Made by a program: the position numbers and the translations under genes
Notes under the pieces: generated by a model
What the model was told of the DNA's origin: nothing
Database searches by the model: none
What the model saw: only the letters and a program-made list of their open reading frames with translations
Source of the DNA: Clostridia bacterium
GTDB taxonomy: Bacteria; Bacillota; Clostridia; Oscillospirales; Acutalibacteraceae
Length of the DNA: 40,083 bases
Assembly (NCBI GenBank): GCA_017443405.1
Contig: JAFRXS010000096.1
Span: 1 to 40,083, forward strand
Direction of reading: 5' to 3'
Part shown: positions 67 through 12,312 of the stretch, piece after piece
How positions within the stretch are numbered: the stretch's first letter is position 1
How the letters are laid out: each line of letters begins with the position of its first letter

Positions 67-1197
67 ATGAAATACGAGAAAAGAACCAATAAATCGAAGC
101 TCGCGAAGAACAATCCGTTGCTCTCGCACTACGATCCCGATATCGTTCCGAAAAAGAACCCGCTGAGCCTCCAGCTCAACGTCGCCAAGTTCCAGAAGGC
201 GACCGACGAGCAGAAGCGTCAGCAGGACGTCATGAGCAAGAGCACGACGTTCTTCAAGGACGGCATGCGCAAGCTGATGAAGAACCCGCTCGCGGTCATA
301 AGCCTCGTCTTCATACTGATCATAGTGCTGACGATAATCTTCGCGCCGTTCTTCATTCCTTATAAGTACGACGAGATCCTCTCCGTCAACGGCGTGCGCG
401 ACAAGGGCGCGAAGAACCTCGCTCCGTTCACCTACAGCCAGATGGAGCAGAAGTTCATCGATGAAGGCGGGGAGCGTTTCCCGCATATCTTCGGCACGGA
501 CGAACAGTGCCGCGACTACTTCATAAGAGTCATCTACGGCACGAGGGTATCCCTCGCCGTCGGTCTGTTCGCGAGTCTGGTCGTTCTTGTCATAGGACTC
601 ATCTACGGCAGCGTTTCGGGCTACGTCGGCGGCAAGACGGATATGATAATGATGCGCATAGTCGACATCATCTATTCGCTGCCCGACATGCTCATGATAA
701 TCCTCTTGTCGGTCGTCCTGCAGCAGGTCCTGTCGTTCAGGCCCGGCAGCTTCCTCGACAAGCTCGGCTCGAGCATGATCTCGCTTTTCATAGTGTTCGG
801 TCTTTTGTACTGGGTCGGCATGGCGAGGCTCATCCGCGGTCAGATACTCTCCATCAAGGAGAACGACTTCATCCTCGCCGCCAAGGCGACGGGCGCGTCG
901 TCCGGCAGGATAATCCGCCGCCACATCATCCCCAACTGCATCTCGGTCATCTTCATTTCGACCGCGCTCCAGATACCCTCCGCGATCTTCACCGAGAGTT
1001 ATCTGTCCTTCGTCGGTCTGGGCGTGCAGAAGCCGATGCCCTCTCTGGGCTCGCTTGCCAACGCCGCGCGCGAAGGTCTGCAGTCCTATCCGTACAAGCT
1101 CGTGTTCCCGGCGATAATGATCTGCCTTATCGTCCTGTCCCTTAACCTTCTGGGCGACGGGCTGCGCGACGCGTTCGACCCGAAGCTGAAAAAGTGA
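67..1197 (+). CDS. oppC: Oligopeptide ABC transporter permease OppC
   Basis: Second membrane subunit of a peptide importer. The 376-residue protein has a long polar N-terminus (about residues 1-70) with an OppC-type first membrane span at about 75-95, and several further hydrophobic spans from about 155 onward. The cytoplasmic EAA-type loop, which couples to the ATPases, is visible as AKATGASSGRIIRRHIIPN near residue 280. The protein ends GDGLRDAFDPKLKK, the usual OppC finish. The ATG follows AGGAGGCAGGGCG. It is slightly longer than many OppC proteins because of the charged N-terminal extension and a periplasmic loop between spans 1 and 2. The order B-C-D-F-A is that of a standard Opp operon. 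Confidence 0.95.
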   Translation: MKYEKRTNKSKLAKNNPLLSHYDPDIVPKKNPLSLQLNVAKFQKATDEQKRQQDVMSKSTTFFKDGMRKLMKNPLAVISLVFILIIVLTIIFAPFFIPYKYDEILSVNGVRDKGAKNLAPFTYSQMEQKFIDEGGERFPHIFGTDEQCRDYFIRVIYGTRVSLAVGLFASLVVLVIGLIYGSVSGYVGGKTDMIMMRIVDIIYSLPDMLMIILLSVVLQQVLSFRPGSFLDKLGSSMISLFIVFGLLYWVGMARLIRGQILSIKENDFILAAKATGASSGRIIRRHIIPNCISVIFISTALQIPSAIFTESYLSFVGLGVQKPMPSLGSLANAAREGLQSYPYKLVFPAIMICLIVLSLNLLGDGLRDAFDPKLKK

Positions 1198-1205
1198 GGT
1201 GTGAG

Positions 1206-2210
1206 ATGGCTGACGAACAAAGGCTTCTGAGCGTGCAGCATCTCTGCACATCCTTCTTTACCGACAACGGCGAGGTCCACGCGGTCAACGACGTGAGCTT
1301 CGACCTCGACAAGGGCAAGATACTCGGCATAGTCGGCGAGTCCGGCAGCGGCAAGAGCGTCACCGCTTACACCGTCATGCAGATACTCGCGGACACCGCC
1401 AAGGTCAGGTCCGGTCACATATTCTTCAGGGGCGAGGATCTTCTTACCTGGCCGGAGCGCAAGATGCGCGCCTTCCGCGGCAAACGCTGCTCCATCATCT
1501 TCCAGGACCCGATGACGAGCCTCAACCCCGTTTTCACCATCGGCTACCAGCTCTGCGAGGCGATACGCCTTCACACCGACCGCAAGGGCGACGAGGTCAA
1601 GGCGCGCGCGATCGAGATGCTGCGTCTTGTCGGCATCAACGACCCGGACAAGAGGCTCAAACAGTATCCGTTCGAGCATTCCGGCGGCATGCGTCAGCGC
1701 GTCATGATCGCGATGGCGCTCGCCTGCGAGCCCGACATCCTTATAGCCGACGAGCCGACGACGGCGCTCGACGTCACGATCCAGGCGCAGATACTCGAGC
1801 TCATGCAGGACCTGCAGAAGCAGCTCGGCATGGCGATAATCCTCGTCACCCACGACCTCGGCGTCATCGCCGAGATGTGCGACGAGATAATCGTCCTCTA
1901 CGGCGGCAGGGTCTGCGAGCGCGGCACCGCCGACGAGATATTCTATAACCCCTGCCACGAATACACTAAGGGTCTGCTGCGCAGCATCCCGAGCGTTTCG
2001 ACGATGTACGAAAGGCTCGTGCCCATATCCGGCACGCCCATCAACATGCTCAACCTCCCGAAGGGCTGCGCCTTCTGCACCCGCTGCGACGAGGCGATGC
2101 AGATATGCATAGAGTCCGTGCCCGACGAGCTGGTCATCAACGAGAACCATAAGGCAGCTTGCTGGTGCAACGTGCGCGACAGGAAAGCGAAGGAGGCGAG
2201 CGCCGAATGA
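1206..2210 (+). CDS. oppD: Oligopeptide ABC transporter ATP-binding protein OppD
   Basis: First ATPase of the Opp importer. It shows Walker A GESGSGKS, the Q-loop region [12 protein letters not shown], signature HSGGMRQRV, Walker [14 protein letters not shown] and the switch histidine in LVTHDLG. The C-terminus carries the oligopeptide/dipeptide-transporter domain with cysteines in GCAFCTRC and CIES, which in this family can hold an iron-sulfur cluster. I chose ATG 1206, which has GAGG at 1196-1199 with a 6-nt spacer, over the upstream GTG at 1194 that overlaps the oppC stop. The stop overlaps the oppF start in ATGA, so translation is probably coupled. Confidence 0.95.
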
Positions 2211-3163
2211 GCGAGGAACTTCTGAGAGTAGAGCATCTCAAACAGTATTTCCCGATCCGCTCGGGCTTCAAGACTCTGCAGCTCAAGGCTGTCGACGACG
2301 TTTCCTTTACGATAAACGCGGGCGAGACGCTCGGCCTCGTCGGCGAGTCCGGCTGCGGCAAGACCACGGTCGGCAGGTCGGTCCTGCGGCTTTACAAGCC
2401 AACGGGCGGCAAGGTCATATTCGACGGCACCGAGGTCACCGACCGCAACATCAAGGGCATGCGCCGCAGGATGCAGATGGTCTTCCAGGACCCGTATTCC
2501 TCCCTCGACCCCAGAATGAAGGTCGAGAACATCATCGGCGAGCCGCTCGACGTCCACGGGCTGTACAGCTCGAAAGAGGAGCGCCGCGAAAAGGTCCTGA
2601 AGCTCATGGAGCTCGTCGGGCTCAACGCGGAGCACGCGACCCGCTACGTCCACGAGTTTTCCGGCGGTCAGCGTCAGCGCATCGGCATAGCCCGCGCTCT
2701 GGCGGTCGACCCGTCGTTCATCGTCTGCGACGAGGCTGTTTCCGCGCTCGACGTGTCGATACAGGCTCAGGTCATCAATATGTTCGAGGACCTGCAGAAG
2801 CAGCTCGGCGTCGCCTATCTTTTCATCGCCCACGACCTGCTCGTCGTTCAGCACATCTCCAAGAGGATCGCGGTCATGTACCTCGGCCACATCGTGGAGG
2901 TCGCCGATTCCTACGAGCTCATGTCGTCCCCGATACACCCCTACACCGAATCGCTTCTTTCCGCCGTTCCCATCCCCGACCCGAAGACGGCGCGCAACAT
3001 GAAGCGCATCGTGCTCGAGGGCGACGTCCCCAGCCCGCTGAAAATGCCGAGCGGCTGCCCGTTCAGAACGAGGTGCCGCTACTGCACGGAGCGCTGCGCC
3101 GCCGAAACGCCGGAGCTCACCGACCGCGGCAACGGCCACTTCTGCGCCTGCTGGGAAAAATAA
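2207..3163 (+). CDS. oppF: Oligopeptide ABC transporter ATP-binding protein OppF
   Basis: Second ATPase, partner of OppD. Motifs are Walker [24 protein letters not shown] after the Q-loop, signature [15 protein letters not shown], Walker [13 protein letters not shown] and switch histidine IAHDL. The C-terminal oligo_HPY region contains [11 protein letters not shown] and a final CACWEK, a cysteine pattern typical of OppF. ATG 2207 overlaps the oppD TGA by 4 nt and has AGGAGG at 2191-2196; an open stretch upstream to 2159 lies inside oppD and is not needed. Its stop is 95 nt before the binding-protein gene. Confidence 0.95.
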
Positions 3164-3258: not shown

Positions 3259-5031
3259 ATGAAGAAAATTCTTGCTATCGTTCTTGCCGCTGCCCTGATC
3301 TTTACTCTGGCTTCCTGCGGCAAGGGCGGTACCGAAGAGCCGGCCACCACAGCGGCTCCCGTCACCGACGCTCCCATCTCTGCCGACGCTACGGCGGAAG
3401 AGCTTGTCGGCGCCGATTACGTCGACCCCGTCAAGGGCTGGGACAAGTACAACGAGCTCATCTCGCAGATCAAGTCCAGCACCGATTACGCGGAGCGCGT
3501 ACAGCTGATGCATGACGCCGAGGACATCCTTATGTCCAACTTCTGCGTCATCCCCATCTACTACTACAACGACATCTATCTGCAGAAGGATTACGTCGAC
3601 GGCATCTACTCCAGCCTGTTCGGCACCAAGTTCTTCATGTACACCACGATGTCCAACGGCGCGACCACGCTCAAGCTGAACCTCGCTTCCGAGCCCGATC
3701 ATCTTGATCCCGCGCTCAACAGCTCCGTCGACGGCGCCTGCCTCGCGGCCAACTCTTTCTCCGGCCTGTATACCTACAACGCCGAAGGCAAGACCGAGCC
3801 CGCCTGCGCGACCGGCTACGAAGTCAGCGAAGACGGCCTGACCTATACGGTCAAGCTCCGCGAAGGCCTTAAGTGGTCCGACGGTTCCGACCTCACCGCA
3901 GAGGATTTCGCGTACTCCTGGAAGCGCGCTGTCGCTCCCGAGACCGCTGCCGACTACGCTTACATGTTCGCCGGTTTCGAGGGCTATGACGAAGAGACCA
4001 ACGACATCAACGTCGAGGCCGTCGACGCCACCACCCTCAAGTTCGTCCTCACCGCTCCCTGCGCTTACATGGAAGACCTCATGGCTTTCCCGACCTTCTT
4101 CCCCGTAAAGAAGGAAGCTGTTGAGGCCGGCGGCGACGAGCCCGGCGCATGGGCCAACGAGGCCGGTTTCGTTTCCAACGGCGCTTACGTCTGCACCGGC
4201 TGGAACCACGAGACCTCTATGACCTACGAGAAGAATCCCAACTGGTACGACGCGGACAAGGTCACCGTCGAGAAGCTTGAGTTCATGCTTTCCGCCGATG
4301 ATACCGCCATCTACGCCGCTTACAACGCCGGCAACATCGACTTTGCCGACACGGTTCCCACCGACGAGGTCAAGAACCTTCTCGACAACCCCGAGTTCAA
4401 GATCATCGACAACCTCGGCACTTACTATGCCGCCTTCAACTGCAAGAGCGATCTCTTTGCGGGCAAGACCCCCGCTGAGGCCGCCTGCATGAGAAAGGCT
4501 CTCTGCATCCTCATCGACCGTGACTACATCACGGAGAACATCGGCCAGACCGGCCAGGTCGCCGCTAACTCCTACATCCCGCTCGGCATGGCCGACGGCA
4601 ACGGCGGCGTGTTCAAGAGCGACAAGACCGTCGGTTACTTCGACGCCGAAGGCACCAACAAGGATCATGCCGCCACTCTTGAGACTGCCCGCACCCTTCT
4701 TAAGGCCGCCGGCTACAAGTTCGGCGACGACGGCAAGCTTTCCGCCGAGACCCCGATCTCCCTTAAGTACCTCACCAACGAGAGCACCGGTCACGTTGCC
4801 ATAGCCGAGGCTATGCAGCAGGACTTCGCCGAGATCGGCGTTGAGATGAACATCCAGACCATGGATTGGAACGTGTTCCTTGATGAGCGCAAGCAGGGCA
4901 ACTTCGACTTCGCTCGCGAGGGCTGGCTCGCCGACTTCAACGATCCCATCAACATGCTTGAGATGTGGATCACGAACTCCGGCAACAACGATTGCCAGTT
5001 CGGCAGAGTCGACACCGAGGCCGCTGAATAA
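3259..5031 (+). CDS. oppA: Oligopeptide-binding lipoprotein (SBP family 5, OppA-like), apparently circularly permuted
   Basis: The extracytoplasmic binding lipoprotein of the transporter. Residues 1-19 are a signal peptide with lipobox LASC (C20), followed by a Thr/Pro/Ala linker. Residues about 61-130 (GWDKYNELIS, YAERVQLMHDAEDILM, VIPIYYYND, GIYSSLFGTKFFMY) match what is normally the C-terminal end of OppA. The canonical N-terminus starts only at about residue 136 (LKLNLASEPDHLDPAL), followed by the usual core (LREGLKWSDG, TAEDFAYSWKR, SNGAYV). The protein stops after GWLADFNDPINMLEMW and SGNNDCQFGR, exactly where normal family members continue with the segment found at the front. The total, 590 aa, is near normal. 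The start has GGAGG at 3248-3252. The 95-nt gap before it shows no convincing promoter, so it is probably co-transcribed with oppBCDF. A terminator follows at 5079. Confidence 0.92.
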   Translation: MKKILAIVLAAALIFTLASCGKGGTEEPATTAAPVTDAPISADATAEELVGADYVDPVKGWDKYNELISQIKSSTDYAERVQLMHDAEDILMSNFCVIPIYYYNDIYLQKDYVDGIYSSLFGTKFFMYTTMSNGATTLKLNLASEPDHLDPALNSSVDGACLAANSFSGLYTYNAEGKTEPACATGYEVSEDGLTYTVKLREGLKWSDGSDLTAEDFAYSWKRAVAPETAADYAYMFAGFEGYDEETNDINVEAVDATTLKFVLTAPCAYMEDLMAFPTFFPVKKEAVEAGGDEPGAWANEAGFVSNGAYVCTGWNHETSMTYEKNPNWYDADKVTVEKLEFMLSADDTAIYAAYNAGNIDFADTVPTDEVKNLLDNPEFKIIDNLGTYYAAFNCKSDLFAGKTPAEAACMRKALCILIDRDYITENIGQTGQVAANSYIPLGMADGNGGVFKSDKTVGYFDAEGTNKDHAATLETARTLLKAAGYKFGDDGKLSAETPISLKYLTNESTGHVAIAEAMQQDFAEIGVEMNIQTMDWNVFLDERKQGNFDFAREGWLADFNDPINMLEMWITNSGNNDCQFGRVDTEAAE

Positions 5032-5078: not shown

Positions 5079-5109
5079 TACCGCGCCCGAAAAGGGCGCG
5101 GTATTTTTT
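5079..5109 (+). terminator. Rho-independent terminator of the opp operon
   Basis: TACCGCGCCC (5079-5088), a GAAAA loop and GGGCGCGGTA (5094-5103) form a 10-bp stem followed by TTTTTT, 48 nt after the oppA stop. Confidence 0.9.
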
Positions 5110-5146
5110 GCGACTGCGCGGCGCGCTGCGCCGCTGCCGTCGCAGC

Positions 5147-5310: not shown

Positions 5311-7023
5311 TCATTCAGAGCGCTGCTCCCTGTATTTCTCGATATCCCTCTGCCTGATCTCGGCGCGGCGGATCTTGCCGCTGATGGTCTTCGGCAGGGA
5401 GTCGACGAACTCGATGACCCTGGGGTATTTGTATGGCGCGGTGTTGAGCTTGACGAAGGTCTGCAGCTCCTTGATAAGAGCCTCGGACGGCTCGTAGCCC
5501 TTGCTGAGGACTATCGTCGCCTTGACCTTGAAGCCGCGAACGTCGTCGGGTACGCCCGTGACCGCGCATTCAAGCACCGCGGGGTGCTCGAGCAGGGTCG
5601 ACTCGACCTCGAACGGACCTATCCTGTAGCCGGAGGACTTGATTATGTCGTCGTTGCGCCCGACGTAGCAGAATCTGCCGTCCTCGTCGCGGTAGGCGGT
5701 GTCGCCGGTGTGGTACCAGCCGCCGCGGTAGGCGTATTTCGTGTCCTTCTTGTTCCAGTTGTAGCTGACCATAAGCCCGCAGGGGCGCAGCGTGGGCTTC
5801 GCCCTGATGCAGATCTCGCCGACGGAGCCGCGAGTCACGTCGTTGCCGTCCTCGTCGAGGATGCGCACGTCGTAGCCGGGGGAGGGAAGTCCCATCGCGC
5901 CCGGGGTGGGCTCGGTCCACGGGTAAAGGGTCGAGATGCTGCAGGTCGTTTCCGTCTGACCGAAGCCCTCGTAGATCTTGAGGCCCGTAGCGTCGTACCA
6001 GCGGTTGAATATCTCGGGGCTGAGCGCCTCGCCCGCCGTGCAGCAGTGCGTGATCGAGCTGAGATCGTAGTCGCCCACATGGCACAGCAGCATCATGCGG
6101 TACATGGTCGGCGGAGCGCAGAACGTAGTGATCCTGTACTTTTCGAGCTTCGAGAGTATGTCGCCGCCCTCGAATCTTTCGAAGTCGTAGACGAAGACCG
6201 CCGACTCGCCGAACCACTGACCGTAGAACTTGCCCCACAGGGATTTGAGCCAGCCGGTGTCGGAGATCGTGAAGTGCAGACCGCCGTCGACCACTCTGTG
6301 CCAGAAAACGCCGGTGATGATGTGCCCGAGCGGATAACGGAAATCGTGCGTTATCATCTTGGGATAACCCGACGTGCCGGACGAGAACGCCAGAAGCATG
6401 ACGTCGGTCGCTACGGTGTGCTGGTCGTCGTCCTCGTCGGGACGCTCGAACTCGGCGCTCTGCTTCTCAAATTCATCCTCGAAATCTATCCAGCCCCTTC
6501 CGGCGCGCTTATGCCCCAGGACGAATTTATACTTTACCGTTTCGTACTCGCCGTCGCCCTCGTCGAAATATTCCGTGCAGCTGCCGTGGTCGGTGATGAC
6601 TACGGCGTTTATCTTGCCGACGTTGCAGCGGTAGACGTAGTCGCTCTTTTTGAGCATGTCCGTCGCCTGGCAGGCGATCGCGCCGATCTTGGCGAGGCCG
6701 AGCATGCAGAACCAGAAATAATAGCTGCGGCGCAGGACGAGCATGACTCTGTCGCCCTTTTTGAGCCCGTAGGAACGGAAAAGGTTCGCCGCCTTGTTGG
6801 ACTCGGTCATCATGTCGCGGAAGGTGAAGCGTTTCTCGGTCCCGTCCGCGCCGACCCAGAGCATAGCGAGCTTGTCGGGCTTGGTGGTGCCGAGCTCGTC
6901 GACTATATCGTAGGCGAAGTTGAAATCGTCCTCGTAGGTGATGTGGTAATTCTCGGTGACGTCGCGGAAGGACGAGAAGCTGTCCCTGCTCCTGCCGAGG
7001 TATTTTTCGTAGATTGCTGACAT
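5311..7023 (-). CDS. AMP-forming acyl-CoA synthetase (short/branched-chain or medium-chain acid:CoA ligase)
   Basis: Activates a carboxylic acid to its CoA ester through an acyl-adenylate. The 570-residue protein has the adenylate-forming core motif LAFSSGTSGYPKMITH (about residues 215-230), the YEGFGQTETT motif, YHTGDTAYRDEDGR with GRNDDIIKSSGYRIGP at the hinge, and KTISGKIRRAEI near the end, whose lysine is the usual catalytic residue. It resembles acetyl-CoA synthetase and medium-chain ligases (MACS type) more than long-chain ligases. The ATG at 7023 has GGGAGA 6-7 nt upstream. It is the last gene of the operon with the 2-oxoacid oxidoreductase, so the likely substrates are isobutyrate, isovalerate, 2-methylbutyrate or an aryl acid. 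Which one cannot be told from sequence. Confidence 0.9.
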   Translation of the reverse strand: MSAIYEKYLGRSRDSFSSFRDVTENYHITYEDDFNFAYDIVDELGTTKPDKLAMLWVGADGTEKRFTFRDMMTESNKAANLFRSYGLKKGDRVMLVLRRSYYFWFCMLGLAKIGAIACQATDMLKKSDYVYRCNVGKINAVVITDHGSCTEYFDEGDGEYETVKYKFVLGHKRAGRGWIDFEDEFEKQSAEFERPDEDDDQHTVATDVMLLAFSSGTSGYPKMITHDFRYPLGHIITGVFWHRVVDGGLHFTISDTGWLKSLWGKFYGQWFGESAVFVYDFERFEGGDILSKLEKYRITTFCAPPTMYRMMLLCHVGDYDLSSITHCCTAGEALSPEIFNRWYDATGLKIYEGFGQTETTCSISTLYPWTEPTPGAMGLPSPGYDVRILDEDGNDVTRGSVGEICIRAKPTLRPCGLMVSYNWNKKDTKYAYRGGWYHTGDTAYRDEDGRFCYVGRNDDIIKSSGYRIGPFEVESTLLEHPAVLECAVTGVPDDVRGFKVKATIVLSKGYEPSEALIKELQTFVKLNTAPYKYPRVIEFVDSLPKTISGKIRRAEIRQRDIEKYREQRSE

Positions 7024-7041
7024 ATGGCGTCTCCCTGATGT

Positions 7042-7590
7042 TTACTTGAGGACGACGGCGATAAATTTCGCCGTGTCATCCAGAGCCTTTTCGGCGTGCG
7101 GGATCGAAGCGTCGAAATAGACGCTGTCGCCCTTGTTGAGTATATAGGATACGTCCCCTATGTAGAAAGCGATCTTGCCCGAAAGGATGTAGTTGAACTC
7201 CTGACCGTCATGCTCGTGCATCTCCGCCGCGTCGTCGGACGGCTCGACCGTCACGAGGAACGGCTCCGCCTTCTTGTTGCGGAAGGTGTACGCCAGATGC
7301 TTGTAGTCGTAGGCGTCCTCGCGCTTGATGGAGTAGCCCTTGCCCTTGCGGACGACGGAGCAGGTCGAGAGCCTCGGAGTCTCGCCGCTGATGAGGTCCT
7401 GTACGTCCACGCCGAGTATCGAGGCGCAGTTGAACAGCATCGAGAACGAAAAGTCGTTCTCGCCCATCTCATAGGCGGTGTACTGTTCGGGAGTTATGTC
7501 GAGACGCTCCGCCATTTCTTCGACGGATATCCCGGCTATGTCGCGCATCGTCGCGAGACGCTCGCCGATGTCCCTGAGTTGTTCTGTCAT
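7042..7590 (-). CDS. XRE-family regulator with C-terminal cupin domain
   Basis: A 182-residue protein. Residues about 8-65 form a helix-turn-helix (LATMRDIAGISVEEMAERL, then a recognition helix region and a stretch ending GVDVQDLI). Residues about 105-180 form a cupin_2 barrel with HEHDGQEFNYILSG and GDSVYFDASIPHAEK, giving the usual metal-binding histidines and glutamate. Proteins of this build act as small-molecule-sensing repressors or activators and often sit beside ligase and 2-oxoacid oxidoreductase genes in clostridia. The start has GGAGG 6-7 nt upstream. It lies in the middle of the operon, 18 nt before the ligase gene, so it may sense a product of the pathway. That role is inferred. 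Confidence 0.88.
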   Translation of the reverse strand: MTEQLRDIGERLATMRDIAGISVEEMAERLDITPEQYTAYEMGENDFSFSMLFNCASILGVDVQDLISGETPRLSTCSVVRKGKGYSIKREDAYDYKHLAYTFRNKKAEPFLVTVEPSDDAAEMHEHDGQEFNYILSGKIAFYIGDVSYILNKGDSVYFDASIPHAEKALDDTAKFIAVVLK

Positions 7591-7654
7591 GTGTTACCTC
7601 CGGCAGGGCCGGTCGGACGGACGTTCATCCGTCCCCCCGGCATGATCTGGTGTT

Positions 7655-8194
7655 TCAGTCTTCGTAATCGTAGCCTATCTTTATCGCTCTGAGGTCGTTC
7701 GCCAGAAGCTGCGGCTTGTTGGCTTTCACGACCTTGCGGAAAGCGGCCTCGGTGTTCTCGAGCGAAACGACGCCCGTGCGGCGTATCATCGCGCCCATGA
7801 GGATGATGTCGGCTCCGCCCCTGAGGTTTTCGTCCTCGGAGCAGATAGCCGTCGCGGGAAGGTAATAGGCTTTGACGTCGGTCCTTTTTACCTTGCGCTC
7901 GATGAGCGAGGAATCGACGAAGATGTAGCCGCCGGGCTTGACGGCGTCCTCATACTTGTCGAGCGAGGGGAGGTTCATCGCGATGAGGATGTCGGGATTC
8001 GCGATTATCGGCGAGCCTATCGGCTTGTCGCTGATCGTGACGGAGCAGTTGGCGGTGCCGCCGCGCATCTCGGGGCCGTAGGACGGGAGCCACGCGACCT
8101 CTTTATTCTCGATGAGCGCCTCGTGGGAGAGGAATTTGCCGGCGAAAAGGATGCCCTGACCGCCGAAGCCCGCAATAAGGATCTGTGTAGTCAT
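7655..8194 (-). CDS. korC: 2-oxoacid:ferredoxin oxidoreductase, gamma subunit
   Basis: Gamma subunit of a four-subunit 2-oxoacid:ferredoxin oxidoreductase (KorC/VorC type), 179 aa, the usual length. The N-terminus has the family signature [14 protein letters not shown], followed by [18 protein letters not shown]. In these enzymes the subunit helps bind CoA and links to the alpha chain. The gene starts 3 nt after the beta-subunit stop. I use the kor symbol for the family; the true substrate may be branched-chain 2-oxoacids (VOR) rather than 2-oxoglutarate. Confidence 0.93.
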
Positions 8195-8197
8195 CTT

Positions 8198-8946
<749 letters not shown>

Positions 8947-8947
<1 letters not shown>

Positions 8948-10014
8948 TATTCTGCGCCTCCTGTCTTTCTTGCTTCTTCGATCGTATCGAGGATGTTGCG
9001 CTCGGTCGGTATCATTCCGCCGACGCGGCTGCACAGCAGAACGGGTCTGCGGCACCTTTCGGCAAGCTCGATATCCTCTATCATCTGACCCATTGACATC
9101 TCGACGGAAACGAAGGCCTTGCAGCTGTCCGCCGCGGCGGCGATGGCGTCCTTCGGGAATGGCCAGAGCGTGACCGGCCTTATCATGCCGACCTTCACGC
9201 CGTTGGCGCGCGCGGTGTCGACCGCGTTCTTCGCGACCCTGGATGCGATGCCGAACGCCACGACGCAGAGGTCGGCGTCGTCCATGCGGTAGGACTCGTA
9301 CATCGCCTCGTTCTTTTCTATCTCCGCGTAGCGGGCGAAACGGGCGATATTCTGATCTTCAAGCTCCTCGGGCTGCAGGCACAGCGAGTTCACGATGTTG
9401 TGCTCGCGTTTCATTTCCGTGCCGGTCGTCGCCCAGGGCTTTTCGTAATCTGTGACTTCGCCGAGGTCGAGCGACACCGGCTCCATCATCTGGCCGACGG
9501 TGCCGTCGGCGAGTATCATCGAGGTCATGCGGTACTTGTCGGCGAGGTCGAAGCCCTTGAACGTAAGGGAGACCATCTCCTGCACCGACGACGGGGCGAG
9601 GACTATCATCCTGAAATCGCCGTGACCGGCGCCGCGCGTGGCGTGGAAATAGTCCGACTGCGAGGGCTGTATGCCGCCCAGACCCGGGCCGCCGCGCTGG
9701 CAGTTGACGACGAGCGCGGGCAGGTCGCAGCCGGCGAGGTAGGAGAGGCCTTCGCTCTTGAGCGAGATGCCGGGGGAGGAGCTGGAGGTCATGACCCTCT
9801 TGCCTGTGGAGGCGACGCCGATGACCATATTGATCGCGGCTATCTCGCTCTCCGCCTGAAGGAAGGTGCCTCCTATCTTCGGCATTCTTTTTGACATATA
9901 AGCGGCTATCTCGGTCTGAGGTGTGATCGGATAACCGAAGTAGAAGCGGCATCCCGCCATTATGGCGGCCTCGGCGAGAGCCTCGTTGCCCTTCATTAGA
10001 ACCTTTTCAGCCAA
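8947..10014 (-). CDS. korA: 2-oxoacid:ferredoxin oxidoreductase, alpha subunit
   Basis: Alpha subunit, 355 aa from the chosen start. It has the pyrimidine-binding domain start GNEALAEAAIMAGCRFYFGYPITPQTE, interrupted here as GNEALAEAAIMAG and YFGYPITPQTE, then TSSSSPGISLKSEGLSYLAG, GGPGLGGIQPSQSDYF, and a C-terminal transketolase-like domain. I prefer the TTG at 10014 because it lies behind GGAAGG and clears the ferredoxin gene. The ATG at 10044 would overlap the ferredoxin by 14 nt, and ATG 9996 has a weaker ribosome site. With the beta, gamma and ferredoxin subunits it completes the enzyme. Confidence 0.92.
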
Positions 10015-10030
10015 AACTATCCTTCCTTTC

Positions 10031-10249
10031 TTATTCTTTTTCAACCGTGATGACGCAGTCGGGGCACATCGTCGCGCAGAAAGCGCAGCCGATGCAGTCG
10101 CCCTCCTTGCCGGGGATGATGCCGGCGGGGTGATAGCCCTTGGCGTTTATCTTGTCGCGGCGCAGCTCGATTATATGCTTCGGGCACGCGTCGACGCAAA
10201 GGCCGCAGCCCTTGCAGGTGTTCTCAAGGAACGTGGTTTTGCCCACCAT
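10031..10249 (-). CDS. korD: 2[4Fe-4S] ferredoxin-like delta subunit of the 2-oxoacid oxidoreductase
   Basis: A 72-residue protein with two clear tetranuclear cluster motifs, CKGCGLCVDACP and CIGCAFCATMCP, the bacterial-ferredoxin CxxCxxCxxxCP pattern. It carries electrons between the catalytic subunits and soluble ferredoxin. It lies directly ahead of the alpha subunit and 21 nt after the ATPase stop, as in many four-subunit KOR/VOR operons. Confidence 0.94.
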   Translation of the reverse strand: MVGKTTFLENTCKGCGLCVDACPKHIIELRRDKINAKGYHPAGIIPGKEGDCIGCAFCATMCPDCVITVEKE

Positions 10250-10270
10250 ACGATTACTTCCTTTCGACGG

Positions 10271-10942
10271 TTATCTGTCTATGCCCTGACGGACGTAGAC
10301 TTCGATCGGGAAAATGTTTTCTATCCTTCCTTCAAGCCGGGGGGCGACGCTCTTTTCGACCGCCGTCATGACAACGGGGAGCCCCGTCAGCTTTGACAGC
10401 CCGTTCGCGAACTCCGCGGAGCGAAGCACGTCGTCCGCCGTCGTCTCCTCTCCGAGATTGGAGTTGTTGACGATGCCCGTAAAGTCGATGCCCGCCGCCT
10501 GCTGCGTCTCTCTCATTATCACGGCGCAGTCCTCCGGCGTGGAGGTCAGCGGCCGGTACATGTTGACGACGAGCAGCATGCGGTAGTCGTTTTCGGCTTT
10601 TATGCCGGGGGCGTAGCGCCCCAGAGCGAGGGCGCCCCTGTCGTCCCCTCCGACGTCGATGACGGCTTTTACAGAGCGGTCGTCGATGAGCGAATATGCG
10701 TCGGCGGGGAGAGCGGGAAGGTCTACGTTCGATTCCGCGTAGTCGGAGGCGATAAGCCTTATGCCGTTTTCTTTGAGGACCTTTTCGGCGTCCTTAGTGC
10801 GGAAATACGGATTGACTATGTCGAGGTCGGCGATCGCCGTCGGGCCCGAGCGGCTCAGCGCCACGGCGTAATTGACCGCGACGTTCGTTTTGCCCGAGCC
10901 GTAGTGCCCGGCGAAAAGCGTGACCCGTTCGGTCGCTGTCAT
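10271..10942 (-). CDS. P-loop ATP-binding protein of unknown role (MinD/CobQ-like fold)
   Basis: A 223-residue P-loop protein with Walker A GHYGSGKTNVAVNYA at residues about 12-26, followed by AIADLDIVNPYFRTKD, where the aspartate resembles the A' motif of the SIMIBI class (MinD, ParA, CobQ). The middle contains VIDVGGDDRGALALGRY, a Walker-B-like strand. Homologues of this layout recur next to 2-oxoacid oxidoreductase genes in Clostridia, and a role in maturing or regulating the iron-sulfur enzyme is a reasonable guess, but none is proven by this sequence. It sits 7 nt after the aminotransferase stop, inside the operon. Confidence 0.8.
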   Translation of the reverse strand: MTATERVTLFAGHYGSGKTNVAVNYAVALSRSGPTAIADLDIVNPYFRTKDAEKVLKENGIRLIASDYAESNVDLPALPADAYSLIDDRSVKAVIDVGGDDRGALALGRYAPGIKAENDYRMLLVVNMYRPLTSTPEDCAVIMRETQQAAGIDFTGIVNNSNLGEETTADDVLRSAEFANGLSKLTGLPVVMTAVEKSVAPRLEGRIENIFPIEVYVRQGIDR

Positions 10943-10949
10943 GAGTATA

Positions 10950-12017
10950 TCAGTCGAGCACCGTGACCCAGCCGAACTTGTCCTCGAGCGTGCCGCCCTG
11001 GATGCCGGTGATGGTGTCGTAGAGCTTCTGAGAAACGGGGCCGATGCCGCCGCCGTTTATGGTCATGACGTCGTCCTTGTAGCGCAGCTTTCCGACAGGG
11101 GAGATGACGGCTGCGGTGCCGGTGCCGAAGCACTCCTCGAGAGCTCCTGTCTTCTGAGCCTCGATGAGCTCGTCGACGGAGATCTTGCGCTCCTCGACGG
11201 GCATGCCCCAGTCGCGGCAGACCGTCAGGACGCTGTTGCGCGTGATGCCGGGCAGGATGGAGCCGTTGAGCATCGGGGTGGTGATGACGCCGTTTATCTT
11301 GAAGAAGATGTTCATCGCGCCGACTTCCTCTATATACTTGCGCTCGACGCCGTCGAGCCACAGCACTTGCGAGTAGCCGTCGTTGTGCGCCTTGACCTGG
11401 GCGATCAGCGAAGCGGCGTAGTTGCCGCCCGTCTTGGTGTAGCCCATACCGCCGCGGACCGCGCGGACGTATTCGTCCTCTATCCAGATGCCGACGGGCG
11501 CGAGACCGCTCGAGTAATAGGCGCCGGACGGGGAGAGGATGATGAAGAATTTATAAGTCTTGGAGGGAGCGACGCCGAGGAACTCGTCGGTCGCGATGAT
11601 GAACGGACGGATGTACAGCGAGGTGCCGGGGACGGTGGGGATCCAGTCCTCGTCGACCTTGACGACGGTCTCGATAGCCTGGACGAAATCCTCTACGGGG
11701 ATCTGCGGGATGACGAGCCTGTCGTTGGAGTCGTTGGCGCGCTTGGCGTTCATGTCGGGGCGGAAGAGGCGGGCTCTGCCGTCCGCGCCGCGGTAAGCCT
11801 TGAGGCCCTCGAACATCTCCTGACCGTAATGGAAGACCATCGCGGCGGGCTCTATCTCAAAACTGCCGTAGGGGACGATCCTCGCGTCGTGCCAGCCCTG
11901 CCCCTCGGTATAGTCCATGACAAACATGTGGTCGGAGAATATCTTGCCGAAGCCCAGATTGTTCCAGTCGGGCTTTGCCTTGGGGGACGTTGTTTTTTCG
12001 ATCCTGATGTTAAGCAT
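10950..12017 (-). CDS. ilvE: Branched-chain amino acid aminotransferase
   Basis: PLP-dependent fold-type IV aminotransferase, 355 aa, that interconverts Val, Leu and Ile with their 2-oxoacids. Motifs include FGKIFSDHMFVMDY at the start, YGQEMFEGLKAYRGADG, TGGNYAASLIAQ, QVLWLDGVERKYIEEVGAMN (the lysine supply and substrate region) and FGTGTAAVISPVG, all typical of the large (class II, eukaryote-like) IlvE group. I chose ATG 12017, which has AGGAG 8 nt upstream; the longer open frame to 12110 runs through the T-box and its terminator and is not used. It is the first gene of the operon and is controlled by the T-box leader. Confidence 0.95.
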   Translation of the reverse strand: MLNIRIEKTTSPKAKPDWNNLGFGKIFSDHMFVMDYTEGQGWHDARIVPYGSFEIEPAAMVFHYGQEMFEGLKAYRGADGRARLFRPDMNAKRANDSNDRLVIPQIPVEDFVQAIETVVKVDEDWIPTVPGTSLYIRPFIIATDEFLGVAPSKTYKFFIILSPSGAYYSSGLAPVGIWIEDEYVRAVRGGMGYTKTGGNYAASLIAQVKAHNDGYSQVLWLDGVERKYIEEVGAMNIFFKINGVITTPMLNGSILPGITRNSVLTVCRDWGMPVEERKISVDELIEAQKTGALEECFGTGTAAVISPVGKLRYKDDVMTINGGGIGPVSQKLYDTITGIQGGTLEDKFGWVTVLD

Positions 12018-12055
12018 TTTCGTTTCTCCTTTTTTTGTTTGATTTGCGAAAGCTA

Positions 12056-12312
12056 AAAAAACAGCCCCCGCAGAAAACTGCGGGGACGATAATAAATACC
12101 GCGGTACCACCCTGCTTGCCGAAAAACCGGCCGCTCACGCCGCCTGACAGCGGCCCGCCCTATAACGGAGGCATCCGTGACCGACTACACGCTTTCGTTT
12201 CGCCGGACCTGCTCGGGAAGGATATCGTTCGTTCTCCGATAACGGCTCGCACCAACCGCCGTCTCTCTGCATCTTTCAAACGGACGCGTTGTTTCCGTCA
12301 ACGCATTTGATT
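12056..12312 (-). promoter_or_regulatory. T-box riboswitch, probably sensing tRNA-Ile
   Basis: The transcribed minus strand contains the T-box core AGGGTGGTACCGCG (about 12101-12114), preceded by stem I elements AGAGAG and GGTTGGTGCGAGCC. Ahead of CTTCCCGAG, in the place of the specifier, is GAACGATATC. The best codon reading is AUC (12223-12221), isoleucine. The leader ends in a terminator with CCCCGCAG-TTTT-CTGCGGGG and a T-run at 12055-12085, which competes with the antiterminator formed by the T-box. It controls ilvE and the downstream oxidoreductase operon. The T-box call is firm; the specifier is less so because I could not fold the RNA. Confidence 0.92.

Follow-up and report, generated by a model that had tools for sequence, protein, structure and literature searches.

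The window, by which we mean the whole 40,083-nucleotide stretch analysed (Clostridia bacterium; GenBank assembly GCA_017443405.1, contig JAFRXS010000096.1, positions 1 to 40,083), carries oppC, oppD and oppF upstream of an oppA gene whose product presents the C-terminal block of OppA first (Table 1). No oppB gene was seen because the window begins at the contig start. The minus strand encodes, at 5311-12110, an acyl-CoA synthetase, an HTH-cupin regulator, POR-type and TPP-binding oxidoreductase parts and a class IV aminotransferase. The signal peptide, lipobox and linker that the initial annotation had placed in front of the OppA sequence were seen in the translation, with the lipobox LASC (L17-A18-S19-C20) recognised by eye. 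Behind them, the OppA part of the protein comprises about 530 residues and includes the peptide-site motif GWLADFNDP at residues 555-563.

Table 1. Features of the permuted oppA gene and of the opp genes upstream of it in the window
Feature	Position	Strand	Basis
oppC, permease	67..1197	+	PF00528, OppC_N; NCBIfam Opp3C best match, below cut-off
oppD, ATPase	1194..2210	+	ABC_tran and oligo_HPY; OppD model best, below cut-off
oppF, ATPase	2159..3163	+	ABC_tran and oligo_HPY; OppF model best, below cut-off
Shine-Dalgarno-like GGAGG, 5' of the start codon	3247..3251	+	seen directly in the sequence
ORF of permuted OppA	3259-5031	+	590 aa (translation)
Lipoprotein signal peptide, residues 1-19, and lipid-acceptor Cys20	3259..3318	+	translation
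Low-complexity linker, residues 21-59	3319..3435	+	translation; outside both OppA matches
Displaced OppA C-terminal block, residues 60-130	3436..3648	+	60-126 to 8are 451-519; hmm 491-561 of the canonical profile
Junction of old C-terminus to old N-terminus, residues 131-135	3649..3663	+	gap separating the two 8are matches
OppA N-terminal and middle part, residues 136-583	3664..5007	+	8are 16-450; PF00496 179-577, E 3.3e-83
7-residue tail VDTEAAE and stop codon	5008..5031	+	translation
Terminator-like hairpin, then T run	5079..5110	+	by eye

Results

The protein matches solved OppA in two swapped stretches

A phmmer comparison with all PDB chains gave Bacillus subtilis OppA (8are) as the best match, in two stretches: residues 132-579 aligned with positions 16-450 of the chain (228.5 bits) and residues 60-126 with positions 451-519 (23.8 bits). 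DppE (8ay0) was likewise matched by residues 132-577 (positions 18-444, 194.6 bits) and by residues 60-118 (positions 447-507, 37.1 bits). These two-stretch matches indicate that the block order is swapped, with a cut at 8are 450/451; the canonical order is absent and the C-terminal block stands first, as the initial annotation had proposed. The whole mature chain is homologous to solved OppA, and the match of residues 60-126 rules out that an unrelated domain occupies the N-terminal end. The two stretches cover 8are 16-519, and the permuted domain is of near-canonical length (by a rough estimate, a median of 524 residues in proteins with the window's cut, type I below, against about 528 in 90 canonical proteins), in agreement with the earlier view that nothing large is missing or duplicated. 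Its boundaries needed slight correction, the displaced block spanning about residues 60-130 instead of 61-130 and the old N-terminal strand running from about 136. The chain had also been said to stop exactly where the displaced block would begin; this holds for the cut at 8are 450/451, but the old middle part stops at about residue 583 and is followed by the 7-residue tail.

Pfam placed the protein in solute-binding protein family 5 (OppA/DppA, cluster C) with a PF00496 score of 280.2 bits against a gathering cut-off of 32.4. This match is a single stretch (179-577) that spans only the middle of the protein, and the displaced 70-residue block has no Pfam match, so that domain annotation alone would suggest an ordinary OppA. 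A Pfam alignment of both halves, from which out-of-order matches had been expected, was run and cannot reveal a permutation of type I since PF00496 covers the middle only. The OppA equivalog NF011684 was the best NCBIfam model, scoring 238.5 bits against a curated cut-off of 947, and the protein is thus not an equivalog. Family 5 was the only Pfam assignment and the best PDB and NCBIfam matches were of OppA type, which sets the protein apart from the cluster B sugar-binding proteins.

The swapped order recurs in related loci

A contig scan of a public genome collection returned 70 related loci with a core identity to the window protein of about 49-78%. Read ORF by ORF, the displaced block precedes the core in 68 of them, the order that the initial annotation had suggested looking for in metagenomic proteins; in the other two (L099 and L103), the ORF is cut at a contig end and its block order is unreadable. 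Two of the loci (L061 and L090) show the permuted order within contigs of 270 and 324 kb. The identical order in 68 of the 70 loci excludes misassembly and likewise rules out a chance origin of the swap. By title, the records behind the loci are mostly metagenome-assembled genomes, labelled for the most part Clostridia, Oscillospiraceae, Ruminococcaceae and Lachnospiraceae, and many bear the name of a gut or rumen sample. Type I genes also occur in records labelled Treponema and Sphaerochaeta (L045 and L079), by transfer or wrong binning.

Permuted genes were also met when genomes were sampled from the window's family (61 of 300 genomes with any match at E 1e-30), order (50 of 394 at E 1e-55), class (86 of 381 at E 1e-60) and phylum (87 of 388 at E 1e-60); a further family sample, queried with the type II protein of L014, gave a match in 29 of 398 genomes at E 1e-90. 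These match counts include canonical genes, and block order was classified for fetched genes only. One new permuted gene (G1174, type III) was among those fetched from the phylum sample; it was the only one.

Three cut points are found among the relatives

The ORFs of the collected loci were compared with a canonical profile of 562 positions derived from 22 canonical relatives. The comparison distinguished three cut points: type I, the window's, at about profile position 490/491 (outliers 485-501); type II, between 399-401 and 401-407; and type III, at 319-323. After four of the 103 permuted ORFs had been omitted as not full length (L105, L093, L139 and L205) and identical sequences merged, 97 distinct full-length permuted proteins were obtained, the window's included, comprising 80 of type I, 13 of type II and 4 of type III. 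The initial annotation had described a single case; the permutation itself is real, but it occurs at three cut points and with more than one origin among the relatives.

In phmmer comparisons, the type II protein of L014 aligned with 8are 18-340 and, through its front part, with 356-453 and 457-516, while the type III protein of L137 aligned with 15-282 and, through its front part, with 295-450 and 457-522. The last blocks of these two proteins, taken alone, matched 8are weakly (E 0.08 and 0.026) and DppE 8ay0 firmly (E 2.6e-8 and 4.4e-6). Two PF00496 stretches were obtained for each of the type II and III proteins compared with Pfam (L014, L134, L260 and L137). In all three types the joint is identical in place, running from the profile end (about 560) to positions 49-57, which implies that the downstream part has lost its signal peptide and linker. 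One permuted OppA (L206:4107-5921, plus strand; G497) has a twin-arginine-like signal (SRRSFLQ) together with a lipobox.

Fusion of tandem copies is the favoured route

In the probable route to the permuted order, tandem oppA copies were fused in frame and each then lost one of its ends. Duplication and trimming predict redundant ends, and in 12 of the 82 type I ORFs the NNDxxxG[KR]-type end is followed by a tail longer than two residues; nine of these long tails (eight distinct proteins) read [YF][ED]GW.., like the [ND]GW/[ND]DW start of the displaced front block. The window's own tail, VDTEAAE, has no such overlap. Canonical oppA genes stand in tandem at two loci, four at L149 (G284) and three at L222 (G602), and no fused oppA dimer was met among the relatives examined. 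The tandem duplication with trimming that the initial annotation had put forward is thus plausible, with weak support: short end overlaps in a few relatives and tandem genes in two speak for it, but the fused intermediate was not met. A 1125-aa frame in G200, considered as a fused tandem dimer, was rejected as dockerin, Bmp and canonical OppA; the 1117-residue sequence concerned (L147:5234-8584, plus strand; G200:C225) combines a dockerin type I, a PnrA-like Bmp and a canonical OppA, that is, two SBPs in one chain.

An OppA split into two genes that were then fused in reverse order would give the same arrangement, and fission followed by re-fusion is a known alternative route (PMC3320104). However, the one split-oppA candidate met, in G678, was rejected as a contig break with a short overlap, and the short overlap at both ends in some relatives is what duplication predicts, which leaves this route a small, though not trivial, chance.

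Trees point to more than one origin

Trees were built on sequences rotated to canonical order, and clade constraints were evaluated by AU tests. For a 54-row tree, 29 of 83 rows were dropped, 24 as long-branch or distant (one of type I) and 5 of type I for thinning; later trees used chosen sets of 61 and 57 rows, the latter without L207, L217 and L170. In the 54-row tree, type I formed a clade with support of 100/100 that includes one canonical row, L007, and types II and III were placed among canonical orthologues. A single clade of all permuted rows was rejected with both 54 rows (p=2.4e-9) and 61 rows (p=5.9e-38). If canonical order is ancestral, this rejection implies at least two origins, one for type I and one for types II and III. 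A single clade of types II and III gave p=0.0539 with 61 rows; with 57 rows it was not rejected without L260 (p=0.376) but was rejected with it (p=2.2e-4). Type II as one clade gave p=0.0211 (61 rows) and, with L260, was rejected (4e-4, 57 rows), whereas type III as one clade was not rejected (p=0.403, 57 rows). A third origin, that of L260, is therefore supported and hangs on one long-branch row, L260 having the longest end branch of the 57-row tree and no opp gene in 3.7 kb upstream. We infer at least two, and probably three, such rearrangements of oppA within this phylum.

Across class and phylum, the 57-row tree requires at the fewest eight changes among the four states. The type III pair L137 and L216 is sister to seven type II rows, so that the cut differs between close relatives within types II and III. 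For type I, the canonical rows L007, L170 and L226 fall inside the clade, and type I may thus have had more than one origin or undergone reversions; with p=0.196, 0.0275 and 0.241 for one clade (54, 61 and 57 rows), a single origin is neither proved nor clearly rejected. These canonical rows within the type I clade of the best trees, together with the shared place of the joint in all types, would also suit a single ancient permutation as the source of all permuted proteins, with canonical order regained repeatedly. The strong rejection of a single permuted clade speaks against this, however, and canonical relatives are interspersed and both solved chains, aligned in full, show canonical order, so that several reversions would be needed; we consider a single permutation quite improbable.

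The permuted genes appear to be kept in function

For 22 pairs of close relatives, 20 within type I and 2 within type II, estimates of dN/dS ranged from 0 to 0.34 in the first block and from 0.04 to 0.30 in the rest; purifying selection acts on both blocks in the relatives. Of the 97 permuted proteins, 94 carry a GWxxD[FYT]x[DE]P motif, and the GWxxD motif is absent in the remaining three (L171, L203 and L217). In pneumococcal AliD, W498 and D501 hold the first peptide residues (PMC11192437), and on our own reading the G-W-x-x-D of the permuted proteins may be the same motif. Of 99 ORFs, two of which are duplicates, 85 show a lipobox pattern, and some of the 14 others have a plain export signal by eye.

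Either oppF or oppD lies directly upstream of 90 of the 97 permuted genes (74/80 of type I, 12/13 of type II and 4/4 of type III), and many canonical relatives occupy the same operon place. No opp gene was seen in the upstream flank examined of six (L091, L100, L151, L171, L217 and L260), and that of L063 was too short to read. At L067 (3-533 and 4815-6611) and L268 (G346), a single oppC-D-F operon stands between a canonical and a permuted oppA of one genome. A second oppC, oppD and oppF set and an oppA fragment (36-52% identity) follow the permuted oppA at L084:7905-11696. An in-frame stop interrupts a canonical oppA in L170/L265 (G559) and a type I gene in L168/L205 (G410), which may be pseudogenes or sequence errors.

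The window genome as assembled has no second close OppA, the next match being 35% identical over 150 residues and the others signal-peptide matches. Among 20 other genomes with a type I gene, 17 had no further match of at least 40% identity at E 1e-20; the exceptions hold a canonical copy (G346, 40%), a partial copy (G339, 43%) and a second permuted copy (G354, 47%).

These data bear on whether the permuted protein could be a decaying or repurposed paralogue, other than the working SBP of the operon. A few relatives would fit such a role: L171 (identical to L207) and L217 lack both the GWxxD motif and an opp gene in the upstream flank examined, and such a gene is equally missing beside the dockerin-like L091, L100 and L151. 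As a general account it is very unlikely, because the permuted protein is the sole close OppA in its own genome as assembled and in 17 of the 20 others, oppF or oppD stands upstream in nearly all cases, dN/dS is well below 1 and the motif is almost universal. The first two proteins (L207:4333-6072, plus strand, G466; L217:587-2539, plus strand, G529) are divergent type I members that may bind something else. The other three (L091:802-2709, L151:527-2422 and L100:4564-6447) are permuted OppAs with dockerin-like repeats in front, for which Pfam Dockerin_1 scored below cut-off in L091 and L151 and was absent in L100; their upstream flanks were examined over 0.7, 0.5 and 4.4 kb for L091, L151 and L100, respectively, and they possibly represent a cell-surface or complex-bound offshoot.

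A chimeric contig joining pieces of two oppA copies, conceivable for an assembly of 227 contigs and 88.5% completeness, has a negligible probability given the recurrence of the order in 68 of the 70 loci, two of them within contigs of 270 and 324 kb, the lack of a second close oppA in the assembled genome and the selection on both blocks in relatives. Together, the homology of both blocks, the 97 distinct permuted proteins, the operon context and the purifying selection support a genuine natural circular permutation of OppA.

The new chain ends map to domain III

OppA domain I comprises residues 1-44, 189-269 and 487-517, domain II residues 45-188 and domain III residues 270-486 (PMC6305025); in AliD, lobe 1 consists of domains I and II, and lobe 2 of domain III (PMC11192437). 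In 1b05 numbering, the type I cut falls after about residue 441, the type III cut after about 278 and the type II cut after 319 (equal to 8are 340-356). All three cuts thus lie in domain III (lobe 2), and both natural OppA termini lie in domain I. The argument of the initial annotation that the natural ends share a lobe and could be joined by a short linker agrees with this placement and with the five-residue junction in the window protein. Domain III makes up about 42% of the chain, and by our own arithmetic three of three cuts would fall in it by chance with a probability of about 0.07; a shared location beyond chance is suggestive only.

Homology shows that, in the permuted protein, a few residues connect the two old termini in domain I and that the opening of the chain lies in domain III, with the last approximately 70 residues now first, behind the signal peptide and linker. 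With the cuts in lobe 2 and the old domain I termini fused, the positions of the cuts imply that the lipid tether has probably been relocated from lobe 1 to lobe 2. For the permuted binding protein Tp0684, its authors consider tethering a possible reason for the permuted topology (PMC4990184). A more speculative proposal, which we advance tentatively and hold to be rather doubtful, is that circular permutation has a hot spot in the oppA of this phylum, where it recurs convergently, with two, three or more rearrangements, cuts shifting among close relatives, lobe 2 opened and lobe 1 termini fused, selected to place the tether on the lobe that is the first to recognise the peptide or to ease docking to the permease. 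If true, this would be a system in which permutation evolves tether position.

Discussion

Taken as a whole, the findings are very probably best explained by a permuted OppA of the Opp importer that arose by fusion and trimming, repeatedly within the phylum, with a shift of the tether. The gene product would be a naturally permuted OppA that, anchored by a lipid, serves as oligopeptide-binding protein to the Opp ABC importer whose genes lie immediately upstream. To judge from the sequence matches, its fold is most likely that of an ordinary two-lobed OppA; by homology and operon context, the retained GW-x-x-D site would bind peptides between the two lobes for delivery to the Opp permease. Like canonical OppA and DppE (8are, 8ay0 and 1b05), the gene product has the same blocks, the peptide-site motif, a place in an opp operon and a Gram-positive lipoprotein anchor, but it differs from them in its block order, its ends in domain III and its fused old termini.

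Circular permutation as such has been described before (PMC3320104). In the open-access literature, most subscription papers lying outside this scope, the matches listed included neither a permuted OppA nor any other permuted protein of cluster C, and the initial annotation had likewise known of no established example. The closest precedent, and the sole naturally permuted binding protein among the matches listed, is the glucose-binding protein Tp0684 (TpMglB-2; 'Type Ic / Cluster Bc'), which, like the window OppA, is described as a lipid-anchored, permuted ABC substrate-binding protein encoded beside its transporter genes; its relatives occur in treponemes and in Gram-positive bacteria of the gut (PMC4990184). 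Tp0684, however, has a sugar-binding Type I / cluster B fold for which one permutation is described, whereas the permuted OppAs belong to peptide-binding cluster C, with three cuts and more than one origin. Moreover, the permuted part of Tp0684 showed poor similarity to the canonical part in its authors' attempt (13%), while both blocks of the permuted OppAs are clearly homologous to their canonical counterparts. Natural permutants also stand beside canonical members among the C5 DNA methyltransferases, for which one uniform natural pattern is reported (PMC5944983), in contrast to the three cut points of OppA. In the saposin/swaposin pair, the permutation is likewise at the gene level and by duplication, but concerns a small helical domain of an unrelated family (PMC3320104).

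Routine domain annotation misses the type I permutation, the Pfam model being confined to the middle of the chain. A protein of about 525 residues occurs in its canonical order and in three permuted ones, in relatives whose oppA genes mostly occupy the same place in the operon. The series offers a test of how permutation arises, of which loops tolerate chain ends and of what the place of the tether does, and, as far as the sequences tell, it would represent a natural experiment in the re-wiring of a protein without loss of its job.
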